A DNA stretch of 33,688 nt, taken from contig RECI01000149.1 in assembly GCA_007694095.1 (NCBI GenBank), positions 1 to 33,688 of the forward strand, given 5' to 3'. Positions 4,193 through 28,274 of this stretch are shown here, piece after piece. How positions within the stretch are numbered: position 1 is the first letter of the stretch; every line of letters starts with the position of its first letter. The position numbers and the translations under genes are program-made. Source of the stretch: Balneolaceae bacterium (GTDB lineage: Bacteria; Bacteroidota; Rhodothermia; Balneolales; Balneolaceae). The notes beneath the pieces are model-generated. The model was not told where the DNA came from, did no database searches, and saw only the letters and a program-made list of their open reading frames with translations.

Positions 4193-7100
4193 CTAAGAAC
4201 AGCCTGTCGTTGAACCGCAGGTCATGCATTTTAAGCATGTTCCGTTGCGTATCATCGTCATGCTGCCGCATTCGGGGCAAGAGTCGCCTGTGTATCCTAG
4301 TTGTTTGGCACGGTCATAATCCGTATCAGATTCTTTCTTAACTGCCTTGGTTACAGCCGCACCTTCAATCACTTTTATTGATTCTTTTACTATGGTTTTT
4401 TTTTCCACCTCATCGGCTAAATCCTGTTCCTCAGAAGGTTTTAATTTTCTAGTGAGAATATCTTCAGGAGCTACATGAGCGAGATCGTCCCTTTCAAGAT
4501 ATGTAACTGCAAGTTCCCTGAATATATAGTCGATGATCGAGGTGGTCATTTTCACGTGTGGGCTGCCATTGACCATACCGCTGGGTTCAAATTTCGTAAA
4601 CACAAATGCATCTACAAATTCCTCCAGGGGTACGCCATGTTGTAACCCGAGCGAAATAGCAATGGCAAAACAGTTCATCAGGCTTCTGAACGCAGCGCCT
4701 TCACGGTGCATATCGATAAAAATTTCACCAAGCTGGCCATTTTCGTACTCACCTGTTCTGAGGTATACACTTTGACCGCCAATTTTTACTTTTTGTGTAT
4801 AACCGCTGCGGCGAAACGGGAGTTTCTGACGCCTTGCCACATATTTATGGATGATTTTTTCAGCAGTTTTTACAATCATTTCCTGCGCTGCCAATGTTTC
4901 ATCATCTTCCTCGTCCAGCTCTTCAAGTACATCACTCATCGAATTCAGCGGCTGGCTGAGTTTGGATCCGTCCCTGTAGAGTGCGTTGGCTTTCAGCATT
5001 TTCTGCCATGAGATCATATAGGCATCTTTAAAATCTTCAACCGTGGCTTCATTCGGAAGGTTGATGGTTTTTGATATAGCCCCGGAAATAAACGGCTGGG
5101 CAGCTGCCATCATGTTGATATGGCCGGCCGCAGATATATACCTTGTTCCGATCCTGCCGCACCTATTGGCACAATCAAATACCGGAAGGTGTTCATCCTT
5201 GAGATGGGGGGCGCCTTCCACTGTCATAGTTCCGCAAATATAGTCGTTGGCGGCCTGAATCTGCTCCTTACTGAATCCAAGAAACTTCAGCATATCAAAA
5301 TTAAAATCTGATAATTGCTCTTCCGTGATATTCAGTACATCTTTGCAGAAATCTTCACCTAGCGTCCAATGATTAAAAGCAAATTTAATGTCAAAACTGC
5401 CGGGAAGTGCCGCTTCTATTGATTCCAGTTTTTCCTGTGTAAAACCTGCTTCACGCAAGCTGGTTTCATTGATATAGGGACAACCATTCAGCGAACCGGA
5501 ACCTTTTGCGTATCGAATTATCTCTTCTATCTCATTTTTAGCGTATCCGAGGTTTTTAAGTGCAAGTGGCACACATTGATTGATAATTTTGAAATAACCG
5601 CCCCCGGCAAGTTTTTTGAATTTTACAAGCGCAAAATCCGGTTCAATGCCGGTTGTATCACAATCCATAACCAAACCAATGGTCCCGGTCGGGGCAATAA
5701 CGGTAACCTGCGCGTTCCGGTATCCATACTTTTCACCAGCATCAACCGCATCGTCAGCATCCTTACGAGCTGCCTCCAACAGGTAATCAGGGCAAATTCC
5801 GGCGTCAATTCCAGTCGGCTTGATCGTCAGACCTTCATAATCGTTTTCAGCTGCGTTATAAGCAGCTCTGCGATGATTTCGCATTACCCTGAGCATGTGC
5901 GTTTTATTTCTTTCGTATGCTTCAAAAGGACCTAATTCTTTGGCAAGTTCGGCACTTGCAGCATAAGATTTCATGTGGAGAATGCAGGTAAGGGCGCCGG
6001 CAATAGCACTGCCTTTAACACTATCATAAGGTACACCCTGAACCATCAGAGCCGCACCAAGGTTGGCATAACCAAGTCCTAATGTCCGGAAGATGTACGA
6101 TAGTTCTGCTATCTCTTTGGATGGAAACTGCGCCATTAAAACAGAGATTTCCAGTACGGTTGTCCATAACCGTGAAGCGTGCCTGATCGAATCAACATTA
6201 AATTCCGTGCAGTTTTCGTCTTTAAAAAACTTCATCAGGTTAAGAGAAGCGAGGTTGCAGGCGGTGTTATCAAGAAACATGTATTCCGAGCAGGGATTAC
6301 TCGCCTTGATATCTCCATCTTCAGGGCAGGTATGCCATTCGTTAATCGTATCATGATACTGTGTTCCGGGATCGGCACACGACCATGCTGCAAAACTTAC
6401 CTGATCCCACAACTCCCTGGCTTTGAGTGTTTTCATGGGCTCGGGTTCCCTTCCTTCCTGTTTTGCCCTGCGTTTTTCAATTCTGCCGTAGAGATTCCAC
6501 ACACCGTCATCAAGAACGGCTTTCATGAAACTGTTGGGGATTCGAACTGAATTATTTGAGTTTTGACCGCTTACAGTCATATATGCTTCAGAGTTCCAGT
6601 CAGTATCGTAGGTATCGAACTCAATGTCAGAGAAACCTTGGGCTGCAAGCTGAATAACACGCTCAATATAGTTGAGGGGTACCTGGTCGCGCTTTGCTTC
6701 CCGTATGGCCATGCCAAGATCTTTATGTTTCACCGGGTCTCTGCTTACAGCGCCATTGAATGATTTTCCGTCAATCTGTACAGGCTGGTGGCAAAGCCTG
6801 ATGATTTTTTTCAGATGTTTTTGCGTGATTTTTGAACCCGTTACAATAGCTGCAACTTTTTGCTCCTCGCGAACTTTCCAGTTGATGTATTCCTCAATAT
6901 CGGGATGGTCGAGATCAAGGGTAACCATTTTTGCAGCTCTGCGGGTAGTGCCACCAGATTTGATTGCACCTGCTGCACGGTCACCTATTTTCAAAAAACT
7001 CATAAGGCCGGATGATTTTCCGCCTCCACTCAGGCGCTCACCTGAACCACGCAAATCCGAGAAGTTAGTCCCGGTTCCGGATCCATACTTAAACAAACGG

Positions 7101-7768
7101 GCTTCACGCACCCACAGGTCCATGATTCCACCCTCGTTTACAAGGTCGTCATCAATACTTTGAATGAAACATGCATGTGGCTGCGGATGTGTGTATGCAT
7201 CCTCTGATTTTTTTAATTTTCCGGTTTCCGGTTCAACATAATAATGGCCTTGAGCAGGACCATTAATTCCATAGGCCCAGTACAAGCCCGTATTGAACCA
7301 TTGAGGGCTGTTGGGAGCAGCCATCTGGGTAGCCAGCATATAGCACAGTTCATCATAGAAAATTTTTGCATCATCCTCTGAGTCAAAGTAGTCGTACTTC
7401 CATCCCCAGTAAGTCCAACACCCGGCAAGACGGTTAAATACCTGCCTGCTATCAATTTCGTGGGTATATCTTTTTTTCTTTTCAACCTTTCCAAGTTCTT
7501 TCTCGTCAGCAATGGAACGCTGAAGCCACCTGGGTACTCCTTTTTCAGCGACTTTTTTCAGGTTTACAGGTACTCCGGCTTTTCGGAAGTATTTTTGTGC
7601 AATAATATCCGTAGCTACCTGTGACCATCCAGAGGGTACAAATACATCAGCCATCTCGAAAATTTTTGAACCATCCGGATTTTTTATTTCTGATCTTCTT
7701 TTTTCAAATGTAATCGGATCGTATGGGGTTTTCCAATCCGGCTTGGTGTAAAAGCGGCTAAATTTCAT
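4193..7768 (-). CDS. nrdJ: Adenosylcobalamin-dependent (class II) ribonucleotide reductase
   Basis: Makes deoxyribonucleotides from ribonucleotides using a B12-generated thiyl radical, without needing oxygen or a second subunit. At 1191 residues it matches the long 'vitamin B12-dependent' form. Visible: THPQPHACF with the N-terminal redox Cys (about C200), [12 protein letters not shown], the active-site NPCSE at 491-495 (C493 and E495), the [20 protein letters not shown] loop of the barrel, and a C-terminal zinc-ribbon-like tail with CPECG, CLKC and CGSTTGC. The start is supported by AGGAG 8 bases upstream (7777-7781 on the plus strand). No cobalamin riboswitch is visible upstream; instead the upstream region holds a cluster of DnaA-box-like sites. 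It has its own terminator. Confidence 0.95.
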
Positions 7769-8428
7769 AGATGATTCTCCTGTTTAGTGGATAAAATTTG
7801 ATGTAAAATGTTAACGGTATGAACTGCGAGTAAGCTCAAAAAGCATATGTGGAAATATATTTGTGAGATCAACAGGCATCAAGAAAAATATCAATTACTT
7901 TTCCACAAAATCCTGAAGTTATCCACAATAAGGAATGAACGCGAATTACACCCACTTTGATGTCTCACGAAACATGTACACTTAAAATCCTAAATATGAT
8001 TAATTCATGTACAATAAAACAAAATTTATACTTAACCTTTTCCAGATGTGCATAATAACAGCCCAATAAAGGCTGATTGAGTATTAATTTCAATTATCCA
8101 CAATATCGAAAAGATATCCACATTTTTAATTGTTTATAATTTTCTATGATAATAAATATTTTATATATGTGTTAAAATATCTTACTTATTTACTTTAATA
8201 TTAATCTTTAAATATTTGAATATTTCATTTTAATATATTTTTAAATTATCCATGATAATCATTTTATAACAAACCGGTACCGGAATACCTTCATGCGTAA
8301 GTTGTTCGTTAGCGTCACCAGATTTGAATTACAACATTTATAACTTTCTATTTTGCAACCGGCCTTTTTGATTTCTACATTTTGTATTTAATTGCTGTAA
8401 TTGCTCCTATAAAACACCAGCCAGAAAA
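7769..8428. other. Gene-free region upstream of nrdJ
   Basis: About 660 bases with no supportable gene. It contains the nrdJ ribosome-binding site, five DnaA-box-like 9-mers (7899-8122), a very AT-rich stretch (about 8123-8270), two copies of CATGTACA (7973-7980 and 8006-8013), and a perfect palindrome CCGGTACCGG (8274-8283). Confidence 0.7.
7899..8270. other. DnaA-box cluster with AT-rich stretch: candidate replication origin or DnaA-controlled promoter
   Basis: Perfect TTATCCACA at 7919-7927 and 8094-8102 (plus), TTATGCACA at 8047-8055 (minus), and one-mismatch sites TTTTCCACA at 7899-7907 and ATATCCACA at 8114-8122 (plus). The cluster spans about 225 bases and is followed by about 150 bases of nearly pure A+T, the usual layout of boxes next to an unwinding element. 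It lies just upstream of nrdJ, so DnaA control of dNTP synthesis is the main alternative; in E. coli DnaA regulates nrdAB. Elsewhere in the window I found perfect boxes only singly, inside genes (about 18767 and 25658). Confidence 0.45.
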
Positions 8429-8708
8429 ATGAACTATAAATGTAATGTCCCATTTCGCGTCCGGTCTTATGAGGTAAACACCTCGGGATTCGTGCATACA
8501 GGGATTATGAACTGATAGACTCCAACGATAATGTACTGTAAACAGGAATATAAAAAGCCTTGATATCCAGTTTCTCCGGGAAGCAGAAGCGGGCGAAATG
8601 ATTTTGTTATCGGAAAAAAGAGATCCCGAAAAAAACCAAGTTTATCGTACACTGTTCCGCGAACGGGACGGTGAGCCGGTAGCAACGGCAGTCATTTCTT
8701 TTCAATAA
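8429..8708 (+). pseudogene. Remnant of a hot-dog fold acyl-CoA/acyl-ACP thioesterase
   Basis: Two pieces of one thioesterase-like protein survive. The first, 8429-8515, encodes 28 residues with VRSYEVNTSGFVHTGIMN, resembling the N-terminal 'VRxYEVDxxGhVnN' segment of hot-dog thioesterases, and ends in TGA TAG. The second, in another frame, is open from 8532 to the stop at 8706-8708 and contains SLDIQFLREAEAGE and then VYRTLFRERDGEPVATAVI, like the usual C-terminal half. About 50-60 residues of the middle are missing or scrambled, so this is a frameshifted, internally deleted gene. The minus-strand frame across 8467-8685 is its shadow. Its end overlaps the 3' end of a small membrane-protein gene on the other strand. 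Recognition rests on motif resemblance. Confidence 0.55.
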
Positions 8709-24684: not shown

Positions 24685-26097
24685 ATGAAAAACGGGAATA
24701 CATTTTCATTTTCAGCATTAACCGTATTACTTCTTTTCCTTTTTTGCCTCCAAACTTCAATCCAGCCGGTTATGGCACAGACATGGAACCCAAATTGGGA
24801 TTCAATATTAAAGCATGAAACTCCTGAATGGTTCAGAGATGCAAAATTTGGCATTTTTATCCATTGGGGTGTCTATTCAGTTCCTGCCTGGGCACCGCGC
24901 GGAATGTATGCCGAATGGTACCCGAGATATATGTATCAAAAAGATCATCCGGTATACGAATATCACAGCAAAACCTGGGGTGAAGATTTCAACTACGAAG
25001 ATTTTATTCCTCTTTGGAGGGCCGAAAACTGGGATCCTGACGAATGGGCTGATCTCTTTAAACGGGCTGGTGCGAACTATGTAATACCGGTAGGTGAACA
25101 TCACGATGGATTTCCGCTTTGGGATTCCGGACTTACCCAATGGAACGCTGCTCAAATGGGCCCGGAAAGGGACCTTATTGCCGAATTAGGAGAATCTGTT
25201 CGGGCGCTCGGTATGAAATACGGGCCTTCTTACCACGGATTGCTCAACTATTATACCCCTGAATACTCTGGGCCGCATCCCGAATATATCAATGAGAACT
25301 ATATCGAGTTCATGCATGCTAAAATGCGTGAAATTATTGATCTTTTTGAACCCGATATCCTTTGGCTCGATGGAGACTGGGTGCAGCCGCTGGAGGTGTT
25401 TCGTACACGGGAAATAATCGCCTACTACTACAACCGTGCAGAGGAATGGGGCAAAGAGGTGGCTGTTAACGACCGCTGGGGCCAGGTTCGCGGGATTTTC
25501 GGTGATTTCTTTACCCAGGAGTATGAGTATGATGTGATAGACCAGCTTATCGATCACAAATGGGAAAATACCCGTGGCATGGGTCAGTCTTTCGGATATA
25601 ACAGCAATGAACCTGAAGAGGATTACATGACTGTAACCGAACTCATTCAGCTGCTTGTGGATAACGTCTCGAAAAATGCCAATTTATTGCTGAATGTAGG
25701 CCCTAAGGCAGACGGCAGCATACCGGAAATTCAAAAGAATCTGCTGCTCGGAATAGGTAAATGGCTTGAAGTGAACGGAGACGCAATTTATGGTACCCGG
25801 CCATGGTTTAAGGCTGAAGCGAAATCAACTCAAGGTGATGATATCCGCTTTACATGGAAAGATGGTACTCTTTATTTGATGTTGATGGATAAAGCAGAAA
25901 CTCAGAGTATTACCATACCATGGGTTCTCCCCGTTGAACATGCTCATATTGCGCTGCTTGCTTCAGGTGAAACATTGAACTGGACACTGAATGATAATAA
26001 CCTGACAATTGAGCTTCCCGATCAACTGCCGGGAGAACATGTTTATGTTCTCACAATTTCTGATGATCCGGGTTACCTGATGCAGCGCAACCGTTAA
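24685..26097 (+). CDS. Exported alpha-L-fucosidase, GH29
   Basis: Retaining glycoside hydrolase that releases terminal L-fucose from glycans, acting outside the cytoplasm: residues 1-31 are a signal peptide ending VMA/Q. The GH29 catalytic barrel follows: WFRDAKFGIFIHWGVYSVPAW (49-69), GEHHDGFPLWDS (137-148) and PDILWLDGDW (223-232) with the nucleophile at about D229. NANLLLNVGPKADGSIP marks the end of the barrel, and a short beta-rich C-terminal domain closes the protein. 470 residues is usual for the family. The acid/base residue is not reliably placed by eye in GH29. It converges with the GH32 gene and is preceded by the duplicated element; no SusC/SusD pair is visible, so this is not a classic complete utilisation locus. 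Confidence 0.93.
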   Translation: MKNGNTFSFSALTVLLLFLFCLQTSIQPVMAQTWNPNWDSILKHETPEWFRDAKFGIFIHWGVYSVPAWAPRGMYAEWYPRYMYQKDHPVYEYHSKTWGEDFNYEDFIPLWRAENWDPDEWADLFKRAGANYVIPVGEHHDGFPLWDSGLTQWNAAQMGPERDLIAELGESVRALGMKYGPSYHGLLNYYTPEYSGPHPEYINENYIEFMHAKMREIIDLFEPDILWLDGDWVQPLEVFRTREIIAYYYNRAEEWGKEVAVNDRWGQVRGIFGDFFTQEYEYDVIDQLIDHKWENTRGMGQSFGYNSNEPEEDYMTVTELIQLLVDNVSKNANLLLNVGPKADGSIPEIQKNLLLGIGKWLEVNGDAIYGTRPWFKAEAKSTQGDDIRFTWKDGTLYLMLMDKAETQSITIPWVLPVEHAHIALLASGETLNWTLNDNNLTIELPDQLPGEHVYVLTISDDPGYLMQRNR

Positions 26098-26154
26098 TGT
26101 TATTAACCTGAGTTAAATTCTAAATTGTCTATTGTATAACTAAGAGATCGGAAA

Positions 26155-26245
26155 AGACTTCCGAAGTCTGCCAACCCCTCATAAAATCTCCAATTGAATT
26201 TGAAGTAATAACACTCTGAAACAAACCGAAAGACTTCGGAAGTCT
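26155..26245. repeat. Pair of near-palindromic hairpins
   Basis: AGACTTC-C-GAAGTCT (26155-26169) and AGACTTC-G-GAAGTCT (26231-26245) are the same 7-bp stem with complementary single central bases, so each is the reverse complement of the other. They are 76 bases apart and lie between the fucosidase stop and the GC-rich repeat. They could bound a small mobile element or act as terminator stems. Confidence 0.7.
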
Positions 26246-26266
26246 TCTACGATTCCACTTATGCGT

Positions 26267-26420
26267 TGTGGGGTCAAAACCCCCTCGATTCAGCTTATCA
26301 CCGATATGGGATTGTCGCTCGGGGGCGGGGAGGTATGCTGCCTTTTACCCCGGACTACATGGGGGAATCGCTGTGCGATTTCCCTCATTGCGCCCGGGGC
26401 TAACTCCGGGGTGGCTATCC
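26267..26420 (+). repeat. GC-rich dispersed repeat, copy 2
   Basis: Shorter copy of the element at 23120-23303, same orientation, lacking its two inserts. Together the two copies bracket the CYTH-like and fucosidase genes as direct repeats about 3.1 kb apart. Confidence 0.75.
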
Positions 26421-26639
26421 CGGGTTAGAATAACCAGCTACAAAAATGAGATGGCTCATCTTGGCATCGTGTTTTATTGCATCATACATCCACCATTTAT
26501 ATCCATTTGATAATCAATATCTATCCCTTTTTTACAGAACCCAGGTTATCAGATTTACGAAGGTTATTTAAACCGGATTTTCCTATTATGGCTGATATTT
26601 TAACAGTACAAAACTGGTAATAAATCTAAAATTATATAC

Positions 26640-28274
26640 TTACTGCTGCTCCCAAACCGATGCCAGCTCCCAAAAATCAAGTTGATCCACAACCGCTTCT
26701 CCGCCTTTTGAATAAAGTACTATACCGGTGCTTTCAGGATCAGGGAAAATTCGTGTGGTCAGTACGGTTTTGCCATCATTTACGAACAATTCCACGGATG
26801 ACCAGTCAACGTATAGATGCAGCCGCAGTTTACCATCTTCAAGAGATACAGGGGCCTCATAGCTGCCGGGAAAATGTTCACTAAACCCGGTCTCTCCAGA
26901 CCGGGTTCTGTCCAGTTTTAGTATTTCGTTTTCATTGTCATACGTAATCACTGTTTCTTCGTTTTCACCTGTTCGAACTTTGAAGCCAAACGTTTCCGCA
27001 TCTGCCGGGTCCAATACCAGCAGAAGTTCATATGCCGCCCCACTTATTCCGTGTTCATCCATCGCAAGGCGGCTTTCGCCTGGTATGGTCAGGCCGCTCA
27101 GCTGCACATGATTACGCCTCAGGGTTTGTAATTCCTGAACGGGTCGCTGTACCAGGCGCACCTCGCCACCGATGTTTTCCAGGTGCAGTGATCTTGGTAT
27201 TGACTGCATACTTCTCCAGGGGTCTGTAGGGATTACATTGGCATAACTCCAATTGTTCGACCAGCCCACCCATAACCTGCGACCGTCTTCTTCAGGTATA
27301 TTGTTCCAGGTTATAGCCGCATAAAAATCGGTACCGTAATCCACCCACAGCGGCCCTTCCCCTTCAGCCGGGCTTTCAGGGATAAAATGTGAGCCGGTCC
27401 ATTCGCCAACGAAATACTGGGAGCCTGAGCCACCTGCAACCGAACCGGGGTTCAGGTCTACATGCAGCACCCATTTCTGGTTGTCCGGGTCACCGTTTAC
27501 CGGTAATTTAAACAGATCGGGGCACTCCCAGATGCCTCCGGTGGCGCCAGCCGGTCCAAAATCACTTAAAAATTCCCAGTCAATAAGGTTATCGGACGCG
27601 TAAAACTGAACTTTATGCTGTGTTGGAAGCGCAACTACCATAAGCCAGCGTCCCATTTCGTCAATCCAGGAAACATTGGGATCACGGAAATCGGGATCAT
27701 CAAACTCAAGTACCGGGTTACCGTCATATTTCGTAAACGTTGTGCCGCCATCAGTGCTGTAAGCCAGAGATTGCGCCTGCCATGTAGAACCGTCATTTCT
27801 TGTGTAGTGACTTGTATAAACGGCTACCAGGGGTGGAATGCTTCCATCTCCAAAACCGCTGGTGTTTTCATGATCCACCACGGCACTTCCCGAAAAAATT
27901 CCCTCCTCCTGCTCTTTCCCATAGGGAATTGCCACCGGCCGGTGTTCCCAGTGAAGCATGTCGGGGCTTACCGCATGCCCCCAGCTCATGTACCCCCATC
28001 GGCTGCCAAATGGGTTATATTGGTAAAAAAGATGGTATTCACCGTTAAAATAAACAAGGCCGTTAGGATCATTCATCCAATGAATACGCGGGGTAAAATG
28101 GTACTGCGGTCGGTACCTTTCCCTGTAATCCACATCTGCTTCAAGGTGCTGGTTAATCAGATCAGACCTGAACTCATACCCGGCCGGTTCATCAGCCCTG
28201 TCGCACCCGTTCAAAAAAAGAAAGTTAAAAATAAAGGCAACAGATATAACAAATATGATGGAAACTGGTTTCAT
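26640..28274 (-). CDS. GH32 fructan/sucrose hydrolase, lipoprotein
   Basis: 544-residue exported beta-fructosidase (levanase, inulinase or sucrase type). The signal peptide ends in a clean lipobox LNGC (C24), so the enzyme is lipid-anchored. All three catalytic motifs of the GH32 five-bladed propeller are present: WMNDPNG (66-72, nucleophile D69), FRDPN (196-200, transition-state D198) and WECPDLF (249-255, acid/base E250). The C-terminal part (from about 370) is the beta-sandwich module, with DWSSVELFVNDGKTVLTTRIFP. Which fructan it prefers is not visible. It faces the fucosidase gene across a repeat-bearing gap and is divergent from the helicase gene. Confidence 0.95.
   Translation of the reverse strand: MKPVSIIFVISVAFIFNFLFLNGCDRADEPAGYEFRSDLINQHLEADVDYRERYRPQYHFTPRIHWMNDPNGLVYFNGEYHLFYQYNPFGSRWGYMSWGHAVSPDMLHWEHRPVAIPYGKEQEEGIFSGSAVVDHENTSGFGDGSIPPLVAVYTSHYTRNDGSTWQAQSLAYSTDGGTTFTKYDGNPVLEFDDPDFRDPNVSWIDEMGRWLMVVALPTQHKVQFYASDNLIDWEFLSDFGPAGATGGIWECPDLFKLPVNGDPDNQKWVLHVDLNPGSVAGGSGSQYFVGEWTGSHFIPESPAEGEGPLWVDYGTDFYAAITWNNIPEEDGRRLWVGWSNNWSYANVIPTDPWRSMQSIPRSLHLENIGGEVRLVQRPVQELQTLRRNHVQLSGLTIPGESRLAMDEHGISGAAYELLLVLDPADAETFGFKVRTGENEETVITYDNENEILKLDRTRSGETGFSEHFPGSYEAPVSLEDGKLRLHLYVDWSSVELFVNDGKTVLTTRIFPDPESTGIVLYSKGGEAVVDQLDFWELASVWEQQ

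Follow-up and report, generated by a model that had tools for sequence, protein, structure and literature searches.

The stretch of DNA analysed here, referred to below as the window, comprises the 33,688 nucleotides of contig RECI01000149.1 (assembly GCA_007694095.1) from a Balneolaceae bacterium, and carries nrdJ, the gene for a class II ribonucleotide reductase (RNR), which is the sole RNR match in this genome and its only identified class I/II large subunit. Upstream of nrdJ, an earlier note made from the sequence alone had described a non-coding gap containing five DnaA-box-like 9-mers, followed by a flank of nearly pure A+T, and had proposed that the region might be a replication origin or, alternatively, a site of DnaA control over the reductase. 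The description itself holds up well. No convincing coding ORF was identified in 7769-8690, all five 9-mers are present within 224 bp (7899-8122), four on the plus strand and one on the minus strand, and the window's most A+T-rich 148 bp start at position 8122, at the edge of the block listed in Table 1. Elsewhere in the window, the C-terminal part of a lycopene cyclase lies beside a Brp/Blh-type beta-carotene dioxygenase (209-1874), a pair indicative of retinal synthesis, and an alpha-L-fucosidase and a GH32 glycosidase (24685-28274) form a small polysaccharide-degradation group.

Table 1. The nrdJ gene and the elements identified upstream of it, in window coordinates.
Feature	Position	Strand	Remarks
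nrdJ, class II (adenosylcobalamin-dependent) ribonucleotide reductase	4193..7768	-	PF02867, E 3.8e-126; PF08471, E 7.9e-45
Predicted -10 element of the nrdJ promoter, TATATT	7854..7859	-	conserved at family loci
Predicted -35 element of the nrdJ promoter, TTGATG	7877..7882	-	16 bp from the proximal box
Proximal DnaA box 2, TTTTCCACA	7899..7907	+	centre at about -56; conserved at Balneolaceae nrdJ loci
Proximal DnaA box 1, perfect TTATCCACA	7919..7927	+	centre at about -76; conserved across family loci
Middle box, TTATGCACA, divergent orientation	8047..8055	-	position kept in many genomes of the genus
Distal DnaA box, perfect TTATCCACA	8094..8102	+	175 bp from proximal box 1
Second distal box, ATATCCACA	8114..8122	+	20 bp from its distal partner
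A+T-rich block, 89.2% A+T	8123..8270	.	abuts the distal boxes

The predicted nrdJ promoter is sigma70-like, with a TTG-type -35 element, a 17-bp spacer and TATATT, and has the proximal pair of boxes 16-17 bp upstream. Transcription is predicted to start near window position 7847, which places the centre of the gene-proximal box (reading TGTGGAAAA along the direction of nrdJ) at about -56. The two proximal boxes share the same orientation and are offset by 20 bp, or two helical turns. Box-like sites are not enriched across the window as a whole (45 observed versus 39.9 +/- 6.4 expected); what is unusual is their clustering, with five sites in 224 bp compared with at most three in 300 shuffles that preserve local composition. 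Across the genome, perfect TTATCCACA occurs 73 times in 4.56 Mb (36 + 37 by strand; reversed control 24 + 17), and two perfect boxes within 200 bp of one another are found only in the nrdJ region and upstream of dnaA; by our own calculation, about 0.2 such pairs would be expected by chance in the genome.

The conservation of the boxes in related genomes, which the earlier note had named as a test of the regulatory reading, was assessed in the nrdJ upstream regions of 68 Balneolaceae genomes with enough upstream sequence. The pair TTTTCCACA-N10..12-TTATCCACA is intact in 67 of these regions, with an N11 spacing in 66. At all 68 loci a gap of 16-17 bp separates the box from the TTG, followed by a spacer of 16-19 bp (exactly 17 bp in 54 cases) and by a -10 element that is TATATT or a close variant. 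Information content per position is 0.2-0.3 bits in the upstream flank and 0.36 in the 17-bp spacer, rising to 1.62 over the TTG of the -35 element and 1.73 over the -10 element; the boxes score 2.00 bits in the same profile because its rows were selected on the boxes. The boxes are invariant, while the DNA between and around them varies. The conserved boxes are present family-wide and hold a fixed register to an RNR promoter, the arrangement expected of an RNR promoter under DnaA control. A possible weak middle box within the 11-bp spacer was also considered: offset 10 scores above shuffled spacers, but only 8 of 61 sequences match there at 7 or more of the 9 positions.

A whole-genome pattern search recovered the box pair in 78 of 92 family genomes, nearly always only upstream of nrdJ, and the reversed pattern gave no match in the same 92 genomes. 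Furthermore, 2-6 boxes are present at every family locus for which 600 bp of upstream sequence is available, compared with a range of 0-3 and a mean of about 0.2 among 882 tiles of one relative. The rare copies of the pair away from nrdJ were found before a gyrB-like gene (L320, genome G084), on the glmS side (L318 and L323) and beside a Brp/Blh-like gene (L321 and L322); two of the extra copies belong to genomes without a full nrdJ (G089 and G090). In g2/g4-type genera (for example L112, L109 and L126), the nrdJ 5' leader contains, shortly after the -10 element, the conserved word CACTTCTTTAGGAG..CTCC; this word is absent from the genus of the window and possibly represents a hairpin or another form of leader control.

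The distal elements are more variable. At 46 of 67 loci, proximal box 1 has a perfect distal counterpart with the same orientation 160-199 bp away. Most other Balneolaceae genera possess one distal box only, whereas the genus of the window has a second pair, also 20 bp apart, located 175-195 bp further upstream, often with a divergent box between; the position of this middle box is kept in many genomes within the genus, and the second distal box is a perfect TTATCCACA in many close relatives. Averaged over the family, A+T content reaches its maximum, 80%, immediately past the distal box. It is 0.80 at loci with a distal box and 0.63 at those without (P ~1e-6, uncorrected for kinship), a difference to which a closer upstream gene may contribute. 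A fixed helical phase between the distal and proximal sets was considered and rejected: distances of 160-199 bp cover all helical phases, which gives no support to a rigid loop.

Outside the family, at least one box-like word was found in 30 of 32 nrdJ upstream regions from other families of the same order. The boxes are arranged differently there, including as pairs 2 bp apart, and the architecture has turned over across the order. At more distant nrdJ loci, mostly from Alphaproteobacteria together with nine from Ignavibacteria, a perfect box is present in 12 of 75, so that scattered use elsewhere is possible; the nine Ignavibacteria loci had no boxes upstream of nrdJ. No perfect box was found in the upstream regions of class I nrdA in six family genomes. 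A similar TTTTCCACA/TTATCCACA pair is seen at -198/-177 of a Nitrospinaceae nrdJ (L031), and may possibly represent independent DnaA control in another phylum.

A cluster of boxes with an A+T-rich flank inside a non-coding gap is also the arrangement that would be expected if the nrdJ region were the chromosomal replication origin, as the earlier note had put forward. Since the genome of the window (324 contigs) is too fragmented for a skew curve, GC skew was sampled in stretches of related genomes. In G003, a complete relative in a single contig, skew is negative from about 2.65 Mb through the contig start to 955 kb, beyond which it is mostly positive up to about 2.6 Mb. Contiguous sequence around this switch places the cumulative minimum of that stretch at 955-956 kb, in the gap between a dtd-like gene (a name assigned from sequence only) and the dinB/purM genes, where five box-like words are found (955360-955782; positions 360-790 of locus L188). 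By contrast, nrdJ of G003 lies at 3,337 kb, about 1.1 Mb from this minimum, with negative skew on both sides. A second single-contig relative, G041, shows a coarse skew switch between 112 and 500 kb with purM at 319 kb, which is compatible with the same origin.

Box density points the same way. Of 25 genomes, 23 have 5-12 boxes in the gap upstream of purM, and 24 conserve the cluster, the remaining one having no purM-side boxes within 1,500 bp. The idea that the nrdJ cluster would be the densest in the genome is thus at odds with up to 12 boxes at purM versus 2-6 at nrdJ, a comparison based on relatives, as the purM gap in the genome of the window has only 3 boxes with at most one mismatch (C237:1551, 1608 and 1892), along with several two-mismatch words. 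In this genome both the purM-side cluster and a cluster upstream of dnaA (C237:47233-47500) lie on a different contig from nrdJ. In addition, in one genus the nrdJ cluster lacks both the distal box and the A+T block. Given the position of the skew minimum and the purM-side cluster, the two kinds of observation that the earlier note had named as refuting an origin, the nrdJ region is not the origin in relatives, where this reading is already refuted, and the chance that it serves as one in the genome of the window is minimal.

The true Balneolaceae oriC likely lies between the dtd-like and dinB/purM genes (L247-L271) and not at dnaA. This predicted origin resembles the nrdJ region in combining DnaA boxes with A+T-rich DNA, but has more boxes, in both orientations, and sits at the GC-skew minimum. 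An origin at dnaA was considered and rejected: a set of boxes is conserved upstream of dnaA (L001, L153-L182), at about -317, -306, -155 and -58 from the start codon, but dnaA is about 347 kb from the skew minimum of G003. Because of this distance, the dnaA-upstream boxes probably serve autoregulation. They share with nrdJ the same 9-mers, mostly in the same orientation, and an organization into two sets about 160 bp apart, but differ in having a close pair only 2 bp apart.

If the region is regulatory, the protein that reads the boxes could in principle be NrdR or some other regulator with a DnaA-box-like site, and the N11 two-turn spacing, which is unlike the double-box spacing of E. coli, would fit such a protein. 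However, no NrdR (TIGR00244) was found in the genome of the window, and none scored above the cut-off in any of the 92 family genomes, the weak profile matches probably being ATP-cone domains of nrdA. Moreover, the sites have the canonical DnaA 9-mer, which is likewise conserved upstream of dnaA and at the purM-side origin of these genomes, and DnaA is present with the canonical box-reading motif GGRDHSTV. Control of nrdJ by another protein consequently appears very unlikely. An NrdR box over the -10 element was also rejected as a candidate: half-palindromes such as CACAAATATATT are seen there, but conservation is confined to TATATT, and no NrdR is present. A search of the nrdJ leader for a cobalamin riboswitch or any other Rfam family gave no match, even at a permissive threshold.

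The boxes could alternatively form a site for DnaA titration or nucleotide exchange, like datA or DARS of E. coli, that merely adjoins nrdJ. Several conserved boxes gathered in one region away from oriC would suit such a function, as would the position of nrdJ, which in two complete genomes is at a similar relative distance (about 0.64 of the replichore, by our own calculation) from the purM-side origin. A titration site would, however, have no reason to keep a register with a promoter, and the proximal pair maintains its 16-17 bp register in 68 of 68 loci; in other families, too, boxes accompany nrdJ despite their changed arrangement. We therefore regard this explanation as improbable.

The family-wide boxes in promoter register instead lend strong support to the other proposal of the earlier note, DnaA control of the adenosylcobalamin-dependent reductase. 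We infer, with a probability of about 0.83, that the nrdJ regulatory region is a DnaA-binding site through which the level or nucleotide state of DnaA sets nrdJ transcription and ties dNTP supply to replication initiation. In the mechanism we propose, DnaA would occupy the invariant proximal pair, immediately upstream of promoter-bound RNA polymerase at nrdJ, with two molecules sitting at about -56 and -76 on the same side of the helix, and would probably also bind the distal box or boxes some 160-200 bp further up, beside the A+T-rich block. Changes in DnaA level or nucleotide state would then alter nrdJ transcription, which would thereby couple dNTP supply to initiation. Positions around -56 and -76 upstream of the start are typical of activators. 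Since box centres there overlap neither the -35 nor the -10 element, activation at low or moderate DnaA occupancy seems the likelier sign of regulation, although the sequence is compatible with either activation or repression; high ATP-DnaA could possibly damp nrdJ via the distal sites. Points that weigh against this reading are the 11-bp gap, the occurrence of the weak middle site in only some genomes, the turnover of the architecture across the order and the lack of a distal box in one genus. More tentatively, and with odds somewhat short of even, DnaA may in Balneolaceae, where no NrdR was detected, be the main transcriptional regulator of the class II RNR (the sole class I/II enzyme in the genome of the window), with the two-turn pair and the distal box/A+T element wiring initiation to dNTP supply.

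To our knowledge, DnaA control of RNR has been studied in detail mainly for the class I nrdAB genes of E. coli. DnaA binds and regulates nrdAB, with low DnaA-ATP or DnaA-ADP activating and high DnaA-ATP repressing transcription (PMC8203912). As in nrdAB (class Ia), DnaA boxes in Balneolaceae lie upstream of an RNR promoter, and an upstream A+T-rich element is present, such a sequence being needed for cell-cycle regulation of E. coli nrd according to the title of Sun et al. 1994, cited in PMC8203912. The two systems differ in that the Balneolaceae boxes are 11 bp apart rather than 3 and serve a class II enzyme with proximal and distal sets and no NrdR detected, and in that their conservation extends over the family and, in changed form, over the order. 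In E. coli, DnaA ChIP-seq showed that boxes 2-3 bp apart are strongly preferred (PMC11317965). No such closely spaced double box is found at Balneolaceae nrdJ; with 11 bp between the boxes at 66 of 67 family loci, DnaA would have to bind there in a different way. DnaA also binds upstream of E. coli nrdD, a class III gene and thus another RNR class with a DnaA-bound upstream region (PMC11317965); there a double box was found by ChIP-seq, whereas in Balneolaceae it is the geometry upstream of a class II gene that is conserved in sequence.

In a survey of the open-access literature we came across no account of a class II reductase controlled by DnaA, nor of replication origins in Balneolaceae, which for a survey of that scope is weak evidence of novelty. 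A published review raises the question of how species without Hda coordinate dNTP synthesis with replication initiation (PMC11853086). For the family, the likely origin is placed beside purM, away from dnaA, and the nrdJ boxes offer a clean site at which to test the link between DnaA and RNR. The apparent conservation of this link with another class of enzyme, in a lineage that lacks the customary repressor NrdR, suggests an independent or very old solution.
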